From Permianibacter aggregans (GTDB lineage: Bacteria > Pseudomonadota > Gammaproteobacteria > Enterobacterales > Permianibacteraceae), in the NCBI RefSeq assembly GCF_009756665.1, contig NZ_CP037953.1, forward strand, positions 1,736,001 to 1,800,000: a stretch of 64,000 bases of DNA, read 5' to 3'. Within the stretch, counting starts at the first letter, position 1, and the number at the start of each line of letters is the position of its first letter. Below, piece by piece: positions 40,582-53,895 of the stretch. The notes below the pieces were generated by a model. That model was given only the letters and a program-made list of their open reading frames with translations. It was not told the origin of the DNA and made no database searches. Position numbers and translations under genes: made by a program.

Positions 40582-41337
40582 TTAATGCTCATCATCTTTG
40601 ATATCACCGGTGGCTTTGGTGTTCATTTTGACGATGTTCAGTTTGTGCTGGGTGCGTACATATCGTTTCAGTTTTTCCGATTTGCTTAGCGGTGCTGCAC
40701 CAGCCGTTTCCGCGTCTTCCGCTGCTTTCTCATCGCCGGTTTTTTCATCAAAACGGGGCGCCGCCGCGAACAACGGTCCTTCTGGCGAAAGTCCACCTTC
40801 GTCTCCTGAGGGTTCCGGCTCTGGCGGTGGCTCGGTTTCTTTCGGCCGCTCGTATGGCTGAATCATATTGGTGTAATGCTCGATCAACCGGGCAATGCCT
40901 TCCGGCGGCCGGCAACGGGTAAAGGCCATCTCAACATCGACAATATCGGTATGGCGACGAACGCTATCCGGACTTTTCGGCGCCAGATACACCTTGAATG
41001 CGGTACGGCCGGCATTCAGATTGTCGACTTCGTGGGTGGCTTTTTTCAGCTCGCTTTCGGTCACCTGAATCGACAGTTCGAAACGCATTTTTTCCAGGGC
41101 AATCCCTTGCGGATTGACCATCGCGACTAGCGGTACCAGCATTTCGTGTTTTTCATCGACCTGAACTTTGACCATCTTGGCCGAAATGCTGCCGTCGACG
41201 GGATCGGTGTCGAAGAATTGCTGGAACATCATGATGTACTGCTGGGCAATCATCGAACCGGTGGTGTTCACCGCATGATGAATGCCTCGGGTGATGTCGG
41301 TCAGCATCTGGGCATTCATTTTCTTCCGGCCAAACAT
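40582..41337 (-). CDS. DUF2589-like protein, third gene of the operon
   Basis: A 251-residue protein with AGGATG before the ATG. Residues 1-160 show a DUF2589-like plan: a helical start (ITRGIHHAVNTTGSMIAQQY), then a beta stretch (MLVPLVAMVNPQGIALEKM, ELSIQVTESE) and the motif RPPEGIARLIEHYTN. The beta stretch and the PPE motif match the first gene of this operon (IPLLAALTHPN..IEEG and GPPEALMRVIDFLTD), so the two are paralogues. The C-terminal ~85 residues are low-complexity and rich in proline and acidic residues, ending in a basic stretch. No signal peptide. Function unknown; the family assignment is by eye. Confidence 0.68.
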   Translation of the reverse strand: MFGRKKMNAQMLTDITRGIHHAVNTTGSMIAQQYIMMFQQFFDTDPVDGSISAKMVKVQVDEKHEMLVPLVAMVNPQGIALEKMRFELSIQVTESELKKATHEVDNLNAGRTAFKVYLAPKSPDSVRRHTDIVDVEMAFTRCRPPEGIARLIEHYTNMIQPYERPKETEPPPEPEPSGDEGGLSPEGPLFAAAPRFDEKTGDEKAAEDAETAGAAPLSKSEKLKRYVRTQHKLNIVKMNTKATGDIKDDEH

Positions 41338-41361
41338 ATTGTTACATCCTGGTTATCGTTA

Positions 41362-41715
41362 TCAGTCGGGAGTGTGAGCGCGAATATTGTTGAGTCGTTG
41401 TTGCATTTGTTCCGGCGTCAAATCGGCGGTGTGACGTGCCGCGTGATACGACAGCAAATCGATGACACGCTGTTCGCTACGCCAAGCCCGCGCCGAGACT
41501 TGCGTGCTGCAACGATGGCGAGAATCACTGCGTCGACACGAAAGATTGTTCAATTGAATCAGCAGCGCCGAAGATGGCGTGCTCGACGAAGAGGTAAGCG
41601 CTTTATTATTAACAGCGATTTCCGGACATGCTCCGGGCGATGAACGCCAACGCCCGGCAATCCATTGCTGGATTGCCGACCACCAGGACTGCCAGCGTTG
41701 CCGCAAGGCCATCAT
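41362..41715 (-). CDS. Small hypothetical protein within the DUF2589-like operon
   Basis: A 117-residue basic protein starting at ATGATG with CCAGGA upstream, eleven bases after the first operon gene and 24 before the third. The N-terminus is tryptophan-rich and amphipathic (LRQRWQSWWSAIQQWIAGRW) and could bind membrane. The C-terminal half holds RVIDLLSYHAARHT, which resembles the RVIDFLTDAATKP of the first gene. I do not recognise the family. The operon position supports it being real. Confidence 0.65.
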   Translation of the reverse strand: MMALRQRWQSWWSAIQQWIAGRWRSSPGACPEIAVNNKALTSSSSTPSSALLIQLNNLSCRRSDSRHRCSTQVSARAWRSEQRVIDLLSYHAARHTADLTPEQMQQRLNNIRAHTPD

Positions 41716-41726
41716 AAATCCTGGGT

Positions 41727-42350
41727 TTATGGATTAGCTGGCGGACCAGCGATCTCGGCCACGGTATCTTTCGACAGATCTTTCTTGATGGAGCTGTCGA
41801 TCATCGTTGGCTTGGTCGCGGCGTCAGTCAGAAAATCAATGACACGCATCAGCGCTTCGGGTGGACCCTGACGCTTGATACCGGTGTGAATGGAATACTT
41901 GGCGCGGGTATCGGTTTTCCGGGTTTGTTCGGATTTATGCGAAACTTTGCCATGCACTTTTACCGTGAACGGCCCCCAGCCTAGTGAGGCTTCCAATGAG
42001 GCTTCACCCGCAGTTTCTTCGTGCGACTCTTCCGATTGACTGACTTCCAATTCAAAATCAATCGAGCCTTCTTCGATGCAAATATTCGGGTGTGTTAACG
42101 CCGCGAGCAGCGGAATGCGCATGGTTTTGCGAATGGTGCCTTTAAAATTGCCTTCGCTGTCGACAATGGTTTCATCGTATTCAAACTGCACATTGACGGC
42201 TTTGCCATCCTTGATGCACACCGACATCAAGAATTCCGCGTAGGCACGGCTTGCCTGCACCTGTGCACTGATCATCGCGCGCAACGGCCCGGCAATCATC
42301 CGGTCCAGCGGCAAGGCATTGATGACCGAACCAATCAGACTGTTATCCAT
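41727..42350 (-). CDS. DUF2589 domain protein, first gene of the operon
   Basis: The start at 42350 is set by AGGAG eight bases upstream. The 207-residue protein has the DUF2589 hallmark start LPLDRMIAGPLRAMISAQVQ (a helix binding-like segment) followed by AYAEFLMSV, an all-beta middle (VQFEYDETI, MRIPLLAAL, SIDFELEVSQSE) and a charged region SEQTRKTDTRAKYSIH. No signal peptide or membrane segment. DUF2589 proteins are widespread small cytoplasmic proteins with no known biochemical role. Here it heads a three-gene operon with a paralogue and is divergent from the vWA/CxxCH gene at 43035. Confidence 0.8.
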   Translation of the reverse strand: MDNSLIGSVINALPLDRMIAGPLRAMISAQVQASRAYAEFLMSVCIKDGKAVNVQFEYDETIVDSEGNFKGTIRKTMRIPLLAALTHPNICIEEGSIDFELEVSQSEESHEETAGEASLEASLGWGPFTVKVHGKVSHKSEQTRKTDTRAKYSIHTGIKRQGPPEALMRVIDFLTDAATKPTMIDSSIKKDLSKDTVAEIAGPPANP

Positions 42351-43034
42351 TCGCTTTCTCCTGTCTGCGTATTTCAAGCCACGACAGCACGCTAGCTGGC
42401 AATGCCTGTCGCTCCACGGTGATGCCTTGTGCTTTCCCGACAGACAGCGTTCACCATCCAGCGGTATCGACTATGCCGGTGATGAAATATCGAGAGCGGA
42501 AGATGCGTTAGTAAAGGATGATGGGGCGGTAAACCTTTCCTCCATGAATGATTAAGCAGCTCGTCCTTGCACGTTGGATCTACTCGGAAGCTAGTTAGCT
42601 ATATGGCCAATGTCAAGAACGCGTCGGGATCCATTACACAAAATTCGAATAACAAGCATTTGTTATTCGCTATCGCGCTTTTTATTAAAGCCCTTATCAC
42701 CAAGCCGTCTTGAACTGGGCTGGCGTTTTGCCGGTGGCTTCGCTAACGTAAAAATGAGGCGGCATAACATGATGTTTGCCGCGGCATTGACAACATTGAT
42801 GCCTTTCGGTGGCGTTAGCCAAAACGCCATCGCGTAATGCGGTTACGTCGAGGTGCTCTCCTCGCGCTAATCGGACGCTCACTCGGACCTCGCAGGGATC
42901 GCTGCTCTGATGGGACGATCATTCGCAACAGCGCTTGCTGTTGTGCGCCGTACGCCTCTTGCCCAGCCCTCCTCTGCGCTTGCCATCGATTGCGCGAACA
43001 CTGGATATGTCCGTTATCGGCAAAGGAGGCTGAT
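42351..43034. other. Divergent intergenic region between the DUF2589 operon and the vWA gene
   Basis: About 684 bp, long for this chromosome. AT-richer stretches at 42590-42690 could carry promoters for either side. A very short ATG frame at 42770-42838 (22 codons, signal-peptide-like) lacks a ribosome site. The right part (42840-43030) is GC-rich and keeps the vWA reading frame open upstream of its real start, but its composition there is cysteine- and arginine-rich and looks non-coding. Confidence 0.5.
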
Positions 43035-46000
43035 ATGTCAGGTTTATCAAAACATACGATGCAATGGACCGTCGGATTGTTGTTGTTTTCTACGTCATTG
43101 CTGGCGGTCGAGATGCCGGCGCCAGCACTGCAGAATGAACCCATTGCGTACATCGGGCATGGCCAGATGTTCGATGCGCAGGGCCGCGCGATTCCGGTGA
43201 CCCCGGATTTTTTGCGTGATATCCAGCAATACTATCTGGATGCGTTGTATCAACAAGCTGACCAACAACTGAGACAGCGCATCGACAACGAAACCTCGCG
43301 CCTGTTCAAGGGTCGCAAATGGAGTCATCAGGATGAGTTGCTCGCCAAGACAGAATTGATTCTTTGGCTACTGGACGAAGTCAATCCGCGCAATGGCCAT
43401 GAAGCCAAGGGCAAGATCAATCTGGTTCGTCGTCATCTTGGCAAACATTTGGCTGGTGCCGAAAAAGGTCAGCGTTATCAGCCACCGAAAGCACTGCAAG
43501 AGTTGCTACAGCCGATTCGACAACAGCGCAAACAACGCCAGCAAGCCCGTGGCTTCTCGACCATGTTGAGCGGTCAGGCCTATATTGATGAATGCGCAGC
43601 TAACGGCGTGCCCATTCCCCCCGATTGGGGCAGCAATCAATGGCAACACGTCGGCAACTTGAGCGATGCCCAGGAATTCATCAGCCAGGGTGCCGAGGCA
43701 CGTGTTTACAAATATGCCAGCAACAGTACCGAAGGCGCCTGCATCGCGCTGCCACGTGTCACCGGCAGTGATATTGTTTTGCTTGGCATTATTTGCTTGG
43801 GCAAACAAACCGGCAAAGCGTGCTTCTGGGACAACCAACAAAACGATGTCGGTTTCGATATTCCGGTTGGTGCATCAATGCCACTGAGCAACTTCGCTGG
43901 TGGTGCCGAATTGTTCGAAGGGAGCGGCGGCACTTGCACCAGTTGTCATGCCGGAGAAAACCCTTACGTATTGCATCCGGGCACACCGCTAGGCATGCCG
44001 GCACTCGGTACGCTGCAAGTGATGGCCGACGTCTGGTACGACCCGCTCGTGCATCCGCAGTGGCCACAGAACGCCGGTCCGGATTTCATTCTCGACACGG
44101 TGCCAAGCACCGGTCAGTGCACGAGTTGTCATGTTCAAGGCAACGCCGGGCGTTTTCCGAAAATTTCCACGTTGATTAACGGTGGCTATTGCAATGCGGT
44201 GCTGAACAATGCGGTAACTCGCACGATGCCAATTGGGAATCCTGGCGATCCGGCTTACGCGGCCCATGTCACGGCACTACAGAATCAATGCGGCGCGAGC
44301 CCGAGCCCAATGCTGCGAGTTGATTCGGTGCTCGACTTCAAGGAAGTGGAGTTGGGCTTTGCCTTCAAGAAAGCTGTCGTCATTCATAACGATGGCGATG
44401 CAGCGTTGACGGTTTCGGCAACGATCACGACTCCAGCCAGTGATCCGATGCGCGATCAATGGAGTGAGCTGAACGAAATCACGCCGGTGATTATCCAGCC
44501 GGGTGGTGCGCCGGTCATTCTGCAACAAGTATATGAACCGGATGCGCTCGGCGATCACAGCATCCAGATGCAAGTCAGCAGCGATGACCCGAGCACACCG
44601 ACCCAGAACATCACATTCACCGGCAGCGGTGTGGCGCCGATTCCGCTCGATACCGTGCTGGTACTCGATCGTAGCGGCAGCATGAAAGATCCGGCGGGCG
44701 ACCGGAAAAAAATCGATGCGATGCGTGATGCGGCAATGCTTTACACCGACTTGTTGCGTGAAGATGTTGGGGGCACCGGCACCGGTGACAAACTCGGTTT
44801 CGTCAAATACAACGATAGCAATAGCGTCTACATGGCACTCGACTTGATCACCAATGCCAAGAAAAATGCCATTGAAGCCGACCAGTTGAGCAACTCCGCA
44901 TTAACCCAGAGCAACAAATTGAAACCGGAAGGTACAACGGGTATTGGCGGTGCCATGCAAACCGCCGCAGGACAAGTTGGCGGCGCACTCACTGATCGCA
45001 AACAGGTGATGGTGGTATTGACTGACGGCATCGAAAACGAGAAACCGTATATCAGCGAAGTACTCGGCGGCATCGAGTCCGGCAACGACAATCTGCAGCT
45101 GTACAGCGTCGGTCTCGGTTTTGATATTGAGCCAACCAAGCTGCAGAACATCACCAACATGGGTACCGGCGGCTATCACCAGGTGTCTGGCGAACTGACC
45201 GAGGAAAACCTGTTCGATCTGGAAACGTTCTACTTCAAGATTTTCGCCAATGCCACCGGCATGGATCTGGTGGTCGATCCAACTCATGCCATCAGTTTGT
45301 TGACGCCGGACCCCATCATTGTCGATACCGCGACGATCATCTCTTCTGACCGTCACGCCAATTTTCTGGTGCTTGATGATCCGGTACTGCGGGCGTTTTA
45401 TGATTTGGAGTTCGTCAGCCCAACCGGTGTCATTCTGAAACCCGGTGCCAGTGTCGGCGGCATTCCGATTCAGGAAATGAGCCGGCATACCTACAAAGTC
45501 TATCGCGTTGTGTTCCCGGACTTGTCGCAGGAAATCGAGTATGTCGGCAACTGGATTTTGCGCCTGACACCGAATGGCAAATGGAGCCGGGAAGCCGTGA
45601 AAAATGCGCTGGCCGAATCGAGTATTCAACACAGCGGTTACATCAGCCCTTACAGTGGTTTGGTGCCGATTGGTTTCGCCGCGGCGGTTGCCTCGAATTA
45701 CCAACTTGATGTGCAGTTGATGCCGTCGAGTTATTTGCCCGGCGCCGACGTACGCATGACCGGCAGCTTAAGCGATCGAGGCTGGCCGGCAGTGCAAGGC
45801 AAAATCGATGTGACCATCACCTCGCCTAACGATACCGCGTATCAGCTGGCGCTTTACGATGATGGAACACATGGCGATAGCGAAGCGCACGATGGCACCT
45901 GGACCAATCATTTTCAACAGACCGGTGTCGCCGGTGTTTACAAATTCTTGTTCCAGTCGATTGGACAGAACGAACGCGGTGAACTGGCGCCACGCGAAGC

Positions 46001-46154
46001 CAGCCGTTATCTGACGCTGCAACAACCGGAAGGCAATCCGCGTGACGATGACGAACGCTGCATTCCCTGTTTGCTGCTGCGACTGCTGATCATTTTTGGT
46101 CTGATGTTACTGATCGCCATGTGGTACTGCTGCTGTTATCGTAAGCGCGGGTAA
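43035..46154 (+). CDS. Exported vWA protein with two CxxCH motifs and C-terminal membrane anchor
   Basis: I chose the ATG at 43035 because AAGGAGG precedes it and a signal peptide follows (residues 1-25, WTVGLLLFSTSLLAVEM). The 1039 residues contain two CTSCH heme-attachment-type motifs (301-305, 362-366), an ASH-like beta domain (about 426-533), a vWA domain with MIDAS DRSGS at 545-549 (about 540-760), a further beta domain resembling choice-of-anchor domains (about 895-995), and near the end ERCIPC, one membrane helix and the tail CCCYRKRG. It should sit in the inner membrane facing the periplasm, or at the surface. The combination of CxxCH with vWA is unusual and I cannot name a function. 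A terminator follows directly. Confidence 0.85.
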   Translation: MSGLSKHTMQWTVGLLLFSTSLLAVEMPAPALQNEPIAYIGHGQMFDAQGRAIPVTPDFLRDIQQYYLDALYQQADQQLRQRIDNETSRLFKGRKWSHQDELLAKTELILWLLDEVNPRNGHEAKGKINLVRRHLGKHLAGAEKGQRYQPPKALQELLQPIRQQRKQRQQARGFSTMLSGQAYIDECAANGVPIPPDWGSNQWQHVGNLSDAQEFISQGAEARVYKYASNSTEGACIALPRVTGSDIVLLGIICLGKQTGKACFWDNQQNDVGFDIPVGASMPLSNFAGGAELFEGSGGTCTSCHAGENPYVLHPGTPLGMPALGTLQVMADVWYDPLVHPQWPQNAGPDFILDTVPSTGQCTSCHVQGNAGRFPKISTLINGGYCNAVLNNAVTRTMPIGNPGDPAYAAHVTALQNQCGASPSPMLRVDSVLDFKEVELGFAFKKAVVIHNDGDAALTVSATITTPASDPMRDQWSELNEITPVIIQPGGAPVILQQVYEPDALGDHSIQMQVSSDDPSTPTQNITFTGSGVAPIPLDTVLVLDRSGSMKDPAGDRKKIDAMRDAAMLYTDLLREDVGGTGTGDKLGFVKYNDSNSVYMALDLITNAKKNAIEADQLSNSALTQSNKLKPEGTTGIGGAMQTAAGQVGGALTDRKQVMVVLTDGIENEKPYISEVLGGIESGNDNLQLYSVGLGFDIEPTKLQNITNMGTGGYHQVSGELTEENLFDLETFYFKIFANATGMDLVVDPTHAISLLTPDPIIVDTATIISSDRHANFLVLDDPVLRAFYDLEFVSPTGVILKPGASVGGIPIQEMSRHTYKVYRVVFPDLSQEIEYVGNWILRLTPNGKWSREAVKNALAESSIQHSGYISPYSGLVPIGFAAAVASNYQLDVQLMPSSYLPGADVRMTGSLSDRGWPAVQGKIDVTITSPNDTAYQLALYDDGTHGDSEAHDGTWTNHFQQTGVAGVYKFLFQSIGQNERGELAPREASRYLTLQQPEGNPRDDDERCIPCLLLRLLIIFGLMLLIAMWYCCCYRKRG

Positions 46155-46158
46155 ACCC

Positions 46159-46187
46159 AAGGCCGGCAGATTGTCGGCCTTTTTTTT
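46159..46187 (+). terminator. Rho-independent terminator of the vWA/CxxCH gene
   Basis: AAGGCCG/CGGCCTT stem followed by eight T residues, five bases after the stop codon. Confidence 0.88.
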
Positions 46188-47361: not shown

Positions 47362-47754
47362 TCATTTGTTAACGGCTAGACTATCCAGAATTGGGCAATG
47401 GGCGTCGTGACTGCCGGGGCAAGCATCGGCGATGCGCTGTAATATTTCACGCATTGCCTGCAGTTCGGCAATTTGCGTATCAAGCTCAGCAATATGCGAT
47501 TCAGCAATGCTTTTCACTTTGGCGCTGGGCCGTTGCTGATTGCGCCACAGTTTCAATAACTCACCGATTTTTTCCAGCGAGAATCCCATCGCTCGAGCAC
47601 GACCGATAAAGCGCAGAGTTTCCAGATCGCTTTCTGAATAGAACCGGTAATTAGTGTAAGAGCGCGCGGCCTTTTTGATTAAGCCTTTGCTTTCGTAATA
47701 GCGAATCATTTTCGCTGATATGCTGCTGGCTTTCGCGGCTTGACCGATGTTCAT
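47362..47754 (-). CDS. cueR: Copper-responsive MerR-family regulator CueR
   Basis: A 130-residue protein: winged-helix N-terminus ([20 protein letters not shown]), dimerisation helix, and a metal-binding loop with C112 and C120 ([10 protein letters not shown]), the positions and spacing that bind Cu(I) in E. coli CueR. It activates copA when Cu(I) rises. Its ATG overlaps the copA stop (ATGA), so it is cotranscribed with its target, and GGAG within the copA end serves as its ribosome site. Confidence 0.92.
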
Positions 47755-50222
47755 GATTGCGCTCCTTTGTTGTGGTTTGACGGTAGCCAGCGCTTTAACA
47801 GCAAGGCATTGCTGACGACGCTGACACTGGAAAAGGCCATTGCGGCACCGGCGATGACCGGGCTCAACAAACCAATGGCCGCGAGCGGAATACCAATAAT
47901 ATTGTAGATAAACGCCCAGAACAGATTCTGCTGAATTTTCCGGTAGGTGCGACGCGAAATGTCGATGGCATCGGCTACCAGCAACGGATTACCACGCATC
48001 AGGGTAATTCCGGCGGTGTGCATCGCGACGTCAGTACCGGTGCTCATCGCGATGCCGACGTCGGCGGCAGCCAGCGCCGGCGCATCGTTGATGCCATCAC
48101 CGACCATGGCAATCACCGTTTCCCGATCTTCGCGCAGACGAGTAATCGTTGCCGATTTTTCTTCCGGCAGGACTTCGGCAAATACCTGATCGATACCGAG
48201 TTGCTGTGCGACAGCGGACGCAGCACCCTTGTTATCTCCCGAAATCATCACAGTAGAGATGTGTTGTTGATGCAGTCGTTGCACGGCCGCAGCACTTTCC
48301 GGCTTCAACATATCACCAAAAGCAATGAGCCCCAGCAGGCGTGGTTTCGGATCGATGTCAGCAAGCCAGGAACAGCTGTAGCCTTTCTCAGCCAATACCT
48401 GGGCACGAGTCGCCAGTGACGCCGTATCGATACCCAGCTCCTGCATTAACCGTTGACTGCCGAAACGCAAGTCAAGTTTGCCAACCCGGCCGCTAATACC
48501 TTTACCAGCAATCGCCCGCACGTGTTCAGCTTCGGGTACGCTGATCGATTCCGCATCCGCCATGCGCAGCACGGCTTTTGCCAATGGATGTTCACTCTGT
48601 TCGTTCAGCGCTGCCGCCAAAGCCAGCACCTCACCGCGTTCGGTGGCTTTGGCTTCAACAGCGACCACTTGCGGCTGGCCCAGTGTCAGCGTGCCGGTTT
48701 TATCAAACGCGACGGTGCGCACCCGATGAGCGATTTCCAATGCCACCGCATCTTTGATCAAAATCCCATATTTAGCCGCCACGCCGGTGCCTGCCATTAA
48801 CGCCGCCGGTGTCGCCAAGCCAAGCGCACAGGGGCAGGCGATGACCAGCACCGCCACAGCGTTCAGCACGCCGCCTTCAAAATCACCACCGAACCACCAC
48901 CAACCCAGCCAGGTCAGCAGCGCAATGACGATGACCACCGGCACAAAAACCGCGCTGACTTTATCGACCAGGTGTTGCACCGGTGCTTTCGCCCCCTGGG
49001 CGCTTTCGACCAAGCGAATGATCTTGGCCAGCACCGATTCGATACCGACGGCCGTGGTGTCGATTTCCAGCACGCCTTCGCCGTTAATGGCGCCCCCAGT
49101 CACTTGATCGTTAATGCTTTTCGCCACCGGCAGCGGCTCGCCGGTCAGCATCGATTCGTCGACATGGCTGTCACCTTGTATCACACGGCCGTCAACCGGA
49201 ATGCGTTCACCAGGTTTGACGATGACCCGGTCGCCGACCCGTACCTCGGCAATCGTCAGCACCGACTCTTTGCCGGCTCTACGCACCGTGGCCACATCCG
49301 GCCGCAATGCCATCAAGGCCCGTATCGCTTCCGTCGTTTGCCGCTTTGCCCGCGCTTCCAGCCATTTGCCGAGCAGGATCAAGGTAATGACCGCCGCCGA
49401 GGCTTCGAAGTACAAAGCCGGGTGCGCGACTGATGGCGCTAGTAGGTGGAAAACCGACAGGCCATAGGCCGCGCTGGTACCGAGCGCCACCAGCAGATCC
49501 ATATTTCCAGTGCCAGCTGTAATCGCCGCCCAACCAGCACGATAAAAACGCGCACCGAGCCAGAACTGCACCGGCGTCGCCAGCAGCAATTGCCACCACC
49601 CGGGCAGCATCCAGTGTTGACCAAACAGATCACCAAGCATCGGTATAATCAAAGGCAGAGTCAGCAACGCCGCCCACCACACGGCCCGGCCTTCATGGTT
49701 GGCTTTTTTATCGGCGACTTTCGGCGATTCGATAGCCGCTTGACTTGTCGTGTCGAGAACCCGTGCTCCATACCCGGCCAAGGCTACCGCCTTCAGCAAG
49801 ACATTCGGGTCGAGCGTTGGTGGGCCGATGACGGTGGCTTTCTCTGCAGCGAAATTAACACTGGCCTGATTCACGCCGGGCACCGCGGAAAGCGCTTTTT
49901 CAATGCGGGCCACGCAACTGGCACAGCTCATCCCGGTCAGTTGCAGCGTCCACTCTCGGGTCTCGATTCGTGGTGCCTCATCTCTGGGCACGCGGTATCC
50001 GGCGGCCATCACGGCGTCACGGAGCCGTTGTTCGCTGACTTCCGGCGAATGCGAAATTTGCGCCTTCTCGACGGCAAAATTAACGCTGACCTTGGACACA
50101 CCGGATATTGCATACAGGGCTTTTTCGACGCGACCGACGCAGCTCATGCAGCTCATGCCTTCGATGGGCAGGCTGGTGTTCAAGCTGACGGGGGCGGCTT
50201 CAGTGTGAGTCGTGGTGTTCAT
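47751..50222 (-). CDS. copA: Cu(I)-translocating P-type ATPase CopA
   Basis: I take the ATG at 50222, six bases after GGAGG. The 823-residue pump has two N-terminal heavy-metal domains (GMSCMSC at 22-28 and GMSCASC about 70 residues later), eight membrane helices, the transport motif CPC ([11 protein letters not shown]), the phosphorylation site DKTGTLT and SEHPLA in the nucleotide domain, ending with [16 protein letters not shown]. It pumps Cu(I) out of the cytoplasm. It is first in copA-cueR and divergent from a CopZ-like gene, with a MerR-type dyad between them. Confidence 0.95.
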
Positions 50223-50268
50223 CGTGGCCTCCATTGACGGGACGAACACAGCATCCACCTTACCACGT

Positions 50269-51924: not shown

Positions 51925-53895
51925 TTAGCGCTGCCACGCCCGGCTGAAGGCGACGACATTGCTGTCTTCGTCTTCCGGTGGTGGCGAGCGCAAGGTTTCG
52001 AGCATCTGTGCGGCTTGCGCGGCTTCGCCGTCCAGATCCATGACCAATGTGTTCAAGGCCTTGATGCGACCCGCCGCGGTAGCGCCGGTGCGCTGCATGT
52101 TCTGCAGTTGTTGCAGGTGCTGCTCGACAGTCAGCTTCTGTGAAGCCAGCTGCTGCGACAACGGCGCCAGTGCATTCTGGCCCCAGCTATGCAATTCGCG
52201 GCGCACCGCTTGCAGGAATTCCGTGATCTGCGCAACCGTAGTCGTGAAGAAGCGGCGCACCGCCAGCGATTCAAAATTCAGGGCAATCTGCATCAGGCGC
52301 GACAGCTCATCGGCATCATGAATGAATTCATGCAGGCGGCGACGGAAACCGCGAGCCGGCAACAAGCGCGGCTCGATGCGCTGCAAACCGAATTCATTTT
52401 CGAATTTGCGGTACACCGATTCGGCCATACGGTTCGATAAATCGGCCTGATGCGATAGCTCGCCGATAATCGCGTCAATTTCAGTGAAAAACTCGCGCAT
52501 CGCGCGCACCAGACCAACGGTCGTGCGGGCGTTCATCAAACGGCCCTGGGTGCGTTCGATCAGCTGACTGATCACCTCGTTGGAAATAATGCCCTGCAGA
52601 ATATTGGATTGCCGATCCATCAGGCGTTGGGTCGGAGTCAGCGCTGTTTGCTTGCGCTTGAATTCCTCGTGCAGTTTCTGCGCTTTCTGCACCATACCGG
52701 TCAGCGCCTCGACATTGCTTTCCTGCAGGTTTTCCAGGTCGTGTTTCTGGCTCAGCAGTTGTTCGCGACGAGTGTTCAGCAGTTGCAGGCTGTTCTCGAC
52801 ATGAGCGGCGCATTCTTCAATGACCGACTCCCACAGTGCCTGACGACGGTAACCGAGCACCGCATCAGACAACAGCTTTTCCAGCTCCAAAATATGGGAG
52901 CGCAGCAGCAATGCCTGGTCGTCGCGTACTTTTGCCAGCAAGCCTTGCTTGGCTGATACCGGCACGATGTCCGACTCTTTCAATTCCAACTGGCGTGAGG
53001 TGGCGCGCACCACGCGGGACAAGGCTTTTTCGATTTTCTTGCGCGAATCGAGTTCGTCCCAGAGGGTATCGACCTTGTTCAGCACCGCGTACAAGCCAAG
53101 ATTCGGCCGGTCTTTCAGTGAGGCGACGTGTTCATTCCAAATGGCCATGTCGGAGGCGGTCACGCCTTGGTCGGCCGCCATGACGAACACCACCGCCTGA
53201 GCTTGCGGCAGCAGGCTCAAGGTCAGTTCCGGCTCGGAACCGAGCGCGTTCAGGCCAGGGGTGTCGAGAATGCACAGGCCCTGTTGCAACAGCGGGTGCG
53301 GGAAGGAGACCAGGGCATGACGCCAGGCCGGGATTTCGACTTTGCCTGGCTCGTTTTCGCTTTCGTCGAGCAGCTCTTCCTTGAAGCCGAGCTTGACGGC
53401 GTCCGCAACCGGCACCACCTTGGTCTCAGTCAGCGACATCATGACCCGGGCCATTTCGCTCGGGTTATCGGCCATCAGCGGGATTTCCACCCACTGGCCC
53501 GGCATGCCGCGGTAATCGGCAATCGGGATATCGGTCAGCCGGGTTTCAATCGGCAACAGACGTAAATAAGAGGTGCGAGTTTCCCGGTCGTAGAACAGCT
53601 CGGTCGGGCACATTGTGGTGCGGCCGGCCTGCGAGGGTAGGATGCGTTGACCGAAACCGGAGAAGAAAATGGCGTTGATCAGCTCAGTTTTGCCGCGCGA
53701 GAACTCACCGGCAAAAGCAATGGTCACATAGTCGGAACGCAGCGTTTCCAGCAGCTGGTACAGGCGCATATCGCCTTCCGGCGTGAACAGGTTGTTCCGC
53801 CGCAACCAGAGCCGGTAGGCACGAATTTCCTTGGCGACCTGTGCTTTCCATAGCGAATAGGTCTCAATGTGACGCGAAAACACTTGAGCTGTCAT
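51925..53895 (-). CDS. Bacterial dynamin-family GTPase
   Basis: A 656-residue protein with a G domain near the N-terminus: P-loop GEFSRGKT (63-70), the conserved threonine region TTMCPTEL (about 92-99), DTPGLN (about 211-216) and NKVDTLWDE (about 268). The rest is almost all helical with long coiled-coil stretches (VEALTGMVQKAQKLHEEFKR), as in dynamin stalks. No signal peptide; no certain membrane helix. Bacterial dynamins remodel or protect membranes, often as paired genes; this one stands alone. Divergent from the TPR-diguanylate cyclase, with about 250 bp between. Confidence 0.88.
   Translation of the reverse strand: MTAQVFSRHIETYSLWKAQVAKEIRAYRLWLRRNNLFTPEGDMRLYQLLETLRSDYVTIAFAGEFSRGKTELINAIFFSGFGQRILPSQAGRTTMCPTELFYDRETRTSYLRLLPIETRLTDIPIADYRGMPGQWVEIPLMADNPSEMARVMMSLTETKVVPVADAVKLGFKEELLDESENEPGKVEIPAWRHALVSFPHPLLQQGLCILDTPGLNALGSEPELTLSLLPQAQAVVFVMAADQGVTASDMAIWNEHVASLKDRPNLGLYAVLNKVDTLWDELDSRKKIEKALSRVVRATSRQLELKESDIVPVSAKQGLLAKVRDDQALLLRSHILELEKLLSDAVLGYRRQALWESVIEECAAHVENSLQLLNTRREQLLSQKHDLENLQESNVEALTGMVQKAQKLHEEFKRKQTALTPTQRLMDRQSNILQGIISNEVISQLIERTQGRLMNARTTVGLVRAMREFFTEIDAIIGELSHQADLSNRMAESVYRKFENEFGLQRIEPRLLPARGFRRRLHEFIHDADELSRLMQIALNFESLAVRRFFTTTVAQITEFLQAVRRELHSWGQNALAPLSQQLASQKLTVEQHLQQLQNMQRTGATAAGRIKALNTLVMDLDGEAAQAAQMLETLRSPPPEDEDSNVVAFSRAWQR

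Follow-up and report, generated by a model that had tools for sequence, protein, structure and literature searches.

Several described systems share features with the protein studied here. Cytochrome c4 and the class I c-type cytochromes (PDB 6q2u, 1etp, 8q1v) resemble it in the context of its second CxxCH motif, CxxCH...(F)PKL...(T)MP, which includes a Met as candidate ligand, and cytochrome c4 also carries two hemes per chain, the number predicted for our module. However, there is no whole-domain match, the similarity depends on CxxCH, and our module has an extra N-terminal region with invariant cysteines and a candidate His in place of the second Met. The choice-of-anchor X/vWA surface proteins (NF041940) show the same succession of a vWA domain, an X segment and a variable C-terminal anchor, but the NF041940 model spans the 37-residue X segment only and a diheme head was seen in no described member that we found. 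A homologous vWA-X half with an N-terminal redox domain also occurs in tyrosinase-vWA-X fusions (L012, L013, L015), in which, however, the head is a copper tyrosinase instead of a diheme module and no signal peptide is evident. A pair of c-type hemes, with His and Met in the distal positions, as predicted for our module, is also a feature of the bacterial di-heme peroxidases (CCP/MauG); in contrast, our protein has no Pfam match to them and its CxxCH motifs are only 61 residues apart. Finally, in the MYXO-CTERM tag, a cysteine precedes a C-terminal membrane helix and basic residues follow it (PMC11980579). The tail of our protein keeps the same order of cysteine, helix and basic residues, but it matches no model, has cysteines also after the helix, and has no tagged cohort in its genome.

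Gene, domain layout and spread

The window is the whole stretch of DNA that was analysed, 64,000 nucleotides of the Permianibacter aggregans genome, and positions are given within it. It contains, on the forward strand, an open reading frame for a 1039-residue exported protein (43035-46154, ATG at 43035), combining a predicted diheme module with ASH, vWA and X parts, whose start and stop are the same as in the original prediction. A strong ribosome binding site, AAAGGAGG (43022-43029, +), was read in the sequence 5 bases before the ATG. Residues 1 to about 25 (43035-43109, +) form a signal peptide with the hydrophobic stretch TVGLLLFSTSLLAV, and the orthologues likewise begin with hydrophobic residues. 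An intrinsic terminator with a 10-bp stem and a T-run is located directly after the stop codon (46159-46181, +); together with the flanking genes, which lie on the opposite strand, it suggests a single-gene transcript. The locus gave no match when scanned against Rfam.

The signal peptide is followed by a c-type cytochrome-like module (residues ~36-425, 43140-44309, +). Next comes an ASH/HYDIN-like Ig domain (residues 425-532, 44307-44630, +), for which a weak match to PF22544 was seen in all five aligned proteins, that of the window protein (425-530, 7e-4) being below the Pfam cut-off. The vWA domain (residues 539-711, 44649-45167, +; Pfam PF00092, 1e-8) has a complete MIDAS, and the set D545-x-S547-x-S549, T635 and D664 is invariant in 5/5 aligned full-length proteins. 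A choice-of-anchor X segment comes next (residues 938-973, 45846-45953, +; NCBIfam NF041940, choice_anch_X, 1.7e-8), with 34 bits for a cut-off of 25. The protein ends with CIPC (1009-1012), a transmembrane helix reaching to about residue 1031 (hydropathy segment 1007-1036), CCC (1032-1034) and RKRG, that is, CIPC-LLLRLLIIFGLMLLIAMWY-CCC-YRKRG (residues 1009-1039, 46059-46151, +). All the elements listed in the original prediction were thus found again (exported ORF, two CTSCH motifs, ASH-like domain, complete MIDAS, further beta domain, CIPC-helix-CCC), and its "further beta domain" turned out to include the choice_anch_X segment. With the terms tried, a literature search found no paper describing the diheme/ASH/vWA/X architecture.

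Five full-length orthologues were found: in two gammaproteobacterial genomes, one of them a MAG (L003) and the other L008, and in a Woeseiaceae MAG (L004, same contig as G224), a Nitrospirales MAG (L005) and an alphaproteobacterial MAG (L006). The four aligned first are 52-67% identical to the window protein. A search of 59 related genomes, among them one from the same genus and another from the same family, did not find the gene. The distribution of the full-length protein is sporadic and looks like the result of horizontal transfer. No relatives turned up among viral contigs and phage records, where the only pattern match (L024) was ruled out. The neighbours of the orthologue genes vary from locus to locus, with no conserved partner gene adjoining.

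The N-terminal module and its candidate heme sites

Relatives of the module were found with a profile of residues 27-425, and they show that it is separable from the rest of the protein. It is fused to another region in G422 (L010) and in L068 and L069, which come from two genomes of the order to which G669 belongs. In these three proteins the fused region reads GDPHI.T.NGI.YDFQAAGEF, which we take to resemble a von Willebrand type D (VWD) domain, a call that Pfam does not make. The same fusion, with a frame break, is carried by a Thiothrix subterranea plasmid, and the module stands alone in G669 (L019) and Rhizobium sp. TH2 (L023). We aligned 11 copies from the three architectures, with pairwise identities of 21-92%. 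The first candidate heme-c attachment motif, CTSCH in the window protein (residues 301-305, 43935-43949, +), and the second, also CTSCH (residues 362-366, 44118-44132, +), are kept as CxxCH in 11/11 copies, as are C187, C236, C254, C263, C386, His314 and Met398; C419 is common to 9/11. Since both CxxCH motifs are invariant in all aligned copies, they are not there by chance, and the possibility that homologues might lack them, which would have spoken against heme, did not materialise. Outside these motifs, a single His, His314 (43974-43976, +), and a single Met, Met398 of the (T/S)MP motif (44226-44228, +), are invariant, which makes them the candidate distal ligands, the latter for the second heme. 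His340 was rejected as a general ligand, being present in the vWA orthologues only and missing from the VWD-like and standalone copies.

For the module, no cytochrome model of Pfam or NCBIfam scored above cut-off, and most members gave weak matches to the cytochrome c7, paired-CxxCH and CBB3 models. A profile of its second half (residues 352-425) was searched against all PDB sequences and matched cytochrome c4 (E = 2e-4 and 1.4e-3) and the putative lipoprotein 8q1v (2e-3, aligned from CxxCH through TMPLGNP); the remaining matches were mainly c-type cytochromes. With a profile of the first motif, 26/26 PDB matches were c-type cytochromes or cytochrome subunits, the best at 6e-4. As a control, CxxCH was masked in the second-half profile. 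The signal was then lost and, of the cytochromes, only 8q1v was left (E = 0.47), which ties the cytochrome similarity to the motif and the residues immediately around it; a common fold is not proven by it. AlphaFold2 models built from five sequences were too poor to use (pLDDT 53 for the module, 43 for the full protein and about 25 in the heme region), and Foldseek with the low-confidence model of the module returned nothing below E = 0.2. The genome contains three Cytochrom_C_asm (PF01578) loci, two of them adjacent at 3.931-3.933 Mb and CcmC/CcmF-like. The protein has a signal peptide for export in a genome with a heme-c assembly system and, judged by sequence, conserved distal His and Met candidates, as expected of a c-type cytochrome.

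Altogether, the invariant CxxCH motifs, His314 and Met398, the PDB matches and the Ccm-type genes make it very probable that the module binds heme. The heme and redox part of the original prediction is well supported by this indirect evidence, but neither its link to a DUF2589-like operon nor a conserved function for the cysteine-rich tail is, as detailed below. The window protein most likely contains a new diheme cytochrome c module, in an architecture for which we found no description, and we assign it to no named family. The module is probably an unannotated, mobile diheme cytochrome building block, contained in no protein-database model and used alone or fused.

Other relatives of the module were also observed. 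In two standalone loci (L023:2916-8696 and L037:3619-9440), a BTAD/TPR-type regulator, YcaO, a TfuA-like protein and the module are found in the same order, and this shared gene order suggests that the standalone module takes part in the work of a cluster for thioamide-type peptide modification. A family of lipoproteins of about 310 residues in Nitrospirota (L053-L062) shares window residues ~170-320 (profile positions 144-294), with CTxCHRGNN, CX3CH as second motif and a conserved PMGP, and is devoid of His314. Broken copies were seen at L022:5872-8162 (the frame break of the Thiothrix plasmid) and L066:1462-2838 (in-frame TGA, G1401), and reflect either decay or sequencing error.

Proposed mechanism and alternative readings

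We consider it rather likely that the window protein is a diheme c-type cytochrome that is tethered to the membrane outside the cytoplasm and docks a partner through its vWA part. It would be exported by Sec, after which the Ccm system would attach heme to C301/C304, with H305 as proximal ligand, and also to C362/C365, with H366. Met398 would most likely complete a small His/Met site of class I type at the second heme. For the remaining distal position, whichever heme it belongs to, the best candidate is His314. Disulfides between the conserved cysteines 187, 236, 254, 263, 386 and perhaps 419 probably surround the heme core. The ASH and vWA domains would keep this redox head away from the membrane, and the C-terminal helix would anchor the whole protein. 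Binding of a partner by the vWA domain is plausible from its intact MIDAS, which, in a Mg2+-dependent manner, could dock a partner protein or matrix, and the two hemes would relay electrons between this partner and periplasmic carriers. Counting against such a diheme carrier are the lack of a family model above cut-off, the loss of signal with masked CxxCH, the lack of a conserved partner gene beside the gene, and the distant Nitrospirota family, which has no His314 and CX3CH as second motif.

The CxxCH motifs could instead have a structural role, as zinc sites or disulfides, in an adhesion protein that is rich in cysteine and binds no heme. The five or six further conserved cysteines would fit such a protein, as would the lack of a cytochrome family model above cut-off and a PDB signal driven by the motif. 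However, the full CxxCH, including its His, is invariant together with His314 and Met398, the genome encoding this exported protein is Ccm-positive, and the PDB profile matches with the motif are nearly all cytochromes c; we regard this explanation as very unlikely. If heme is bound, the module might still be an enzyme and not a carrier, with one heme, possibly open or His-capped, acting on a phenolic or peptide substrate by peroxidase- or oxidase-type chemistry and the vWA domain binding the substrate or a partner enzyme, in functional parallel to the copper tyrosinases. In the Woeseiaceae MAG, the gene next after the orthologue, on the same strand, encodes a Tat-type tyrosinase (L004 11116-12666), tyrosinase-vWA-X fusions exist among the related proteins (L012, and L015 by sequence), and tyrosinase genes are present in four distinct module-carrying genomes, G794 and G1047 being counted as one, versus 11/185 background genomes of the class. 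Moreover, YcaO and TfuA-like genes adjoin standalone modules, and the Nitrospirota relatives do without His314. Yet the genome of the window has no tyrosinase, the adjacency was observed once, and the sample is small and not free of habitat effects, so that the tyrosinase association is a lead only. In addition, the CCP_MauG di-heme peroxidase families are not among the Pfam matches at E<=10, and the invariant His314 and Met398 fit six-coordinate carriers. An enzymatic role for the module is the main alternative to that of a carrier and appears unlikely to us.

A further alternative concerns the tail only and is compatible with heme binding by the module. The CxPC-helix-CxC tail is kept in the gammaproteobacterial orthologues only: the Nitrospirales orthologue ends in CPITCLKKCIPCLKKCLKDMKCS, with Cys present and no membrane helix, and the alphaproteobacterial one has a different C-terminus. 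The tail is not kept across phyla, and a conserved role for its cysteines is not supported. The Cys-helix-basic tail could be a sorting tag of the kind of MYXO-CTERM or GlyGly-CTERM, cleaved or lipidated to bring the protein to the cell surface, and neither a permanent inner-membrane anchor nor a redox site. Its tripartite layout (Cys motif, helix, basic end) resembles that of MYXO-CTERM in PMC11980579 and the C-terminus is swapped among orthologues, but no CTERM model of NCBIfam matches at E<=1 and cysteines are also found after the helix; we hold this explanation to be unlikely. A genome-wide sorting tag was rejected, as the CxPC-LLL pattern occurs once in the genome and there is thus no cohort of tagged clients. 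The tail is likelier to be an anchor, perhaps processed, than a redox relay.

The vWA-X scaffold and neighbouring genes

The vWA-X half also occurs without the diheme head. It is combined with ASH-type repeats in L011 and with a tyrosinase domain (Pfam 2e-27) in L012; L015 reads as a tyrosinase-vWA-X fusion, and in L013 the half shares an open frame with a tyrosinase match. This suggests that it is a reusable scaffold able to carry a heme or a copper redox head, which would give a handle on the function of the large uncharacterised bacterial vWA proteins. More speculatively, and with less chance of being right than wrong by a wide measure, the module may found a new, widespread diheme cytochrome c family acting as a plug-in redox head: on vWA-X scaffolds, where a copper tyrosinase head could take its place, on VWD-like scaffolds, or standalone in YcaO-TfuA (thioamide-type peptide) clusters. 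It would then act outside the cytoplasm on proteins, peptides or phenols, either as an enzyme or as an oxidative partner. The module offers a clear ligand prediction, and the standalone copies beside YcaO/TfuA a genetically compact system for finding its reaction. The three tyrosinase fusions have a cysteine-bearing C-terminus. A trypsin-like domain followed by vWA and a C-terminal membrane helix, with no evident signal peptide, can be read in L014:352-3297.

Two DUF2589 proteins flanking a 117-residue protein without Pfam match are encoded beside the window gene (40582-42377, -). They are the only DUF2589 copies in the genome, and none was found by tblastn in the orthologue loci examined, so that the proposed link to this operon is not supported. 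On the other side, one gene beyond the ORF, the stretch 47362-50258 (-) encodes a regulator of the MerR type and a P-type metal ATPase whose N-terminus carries two CxxC metal-binding domains, a pair that we take to be CueR/CopA-like. Further on, at 51925-53895 (-), the window encodes what reads as a dynamin-like GTPase of 656 residues.
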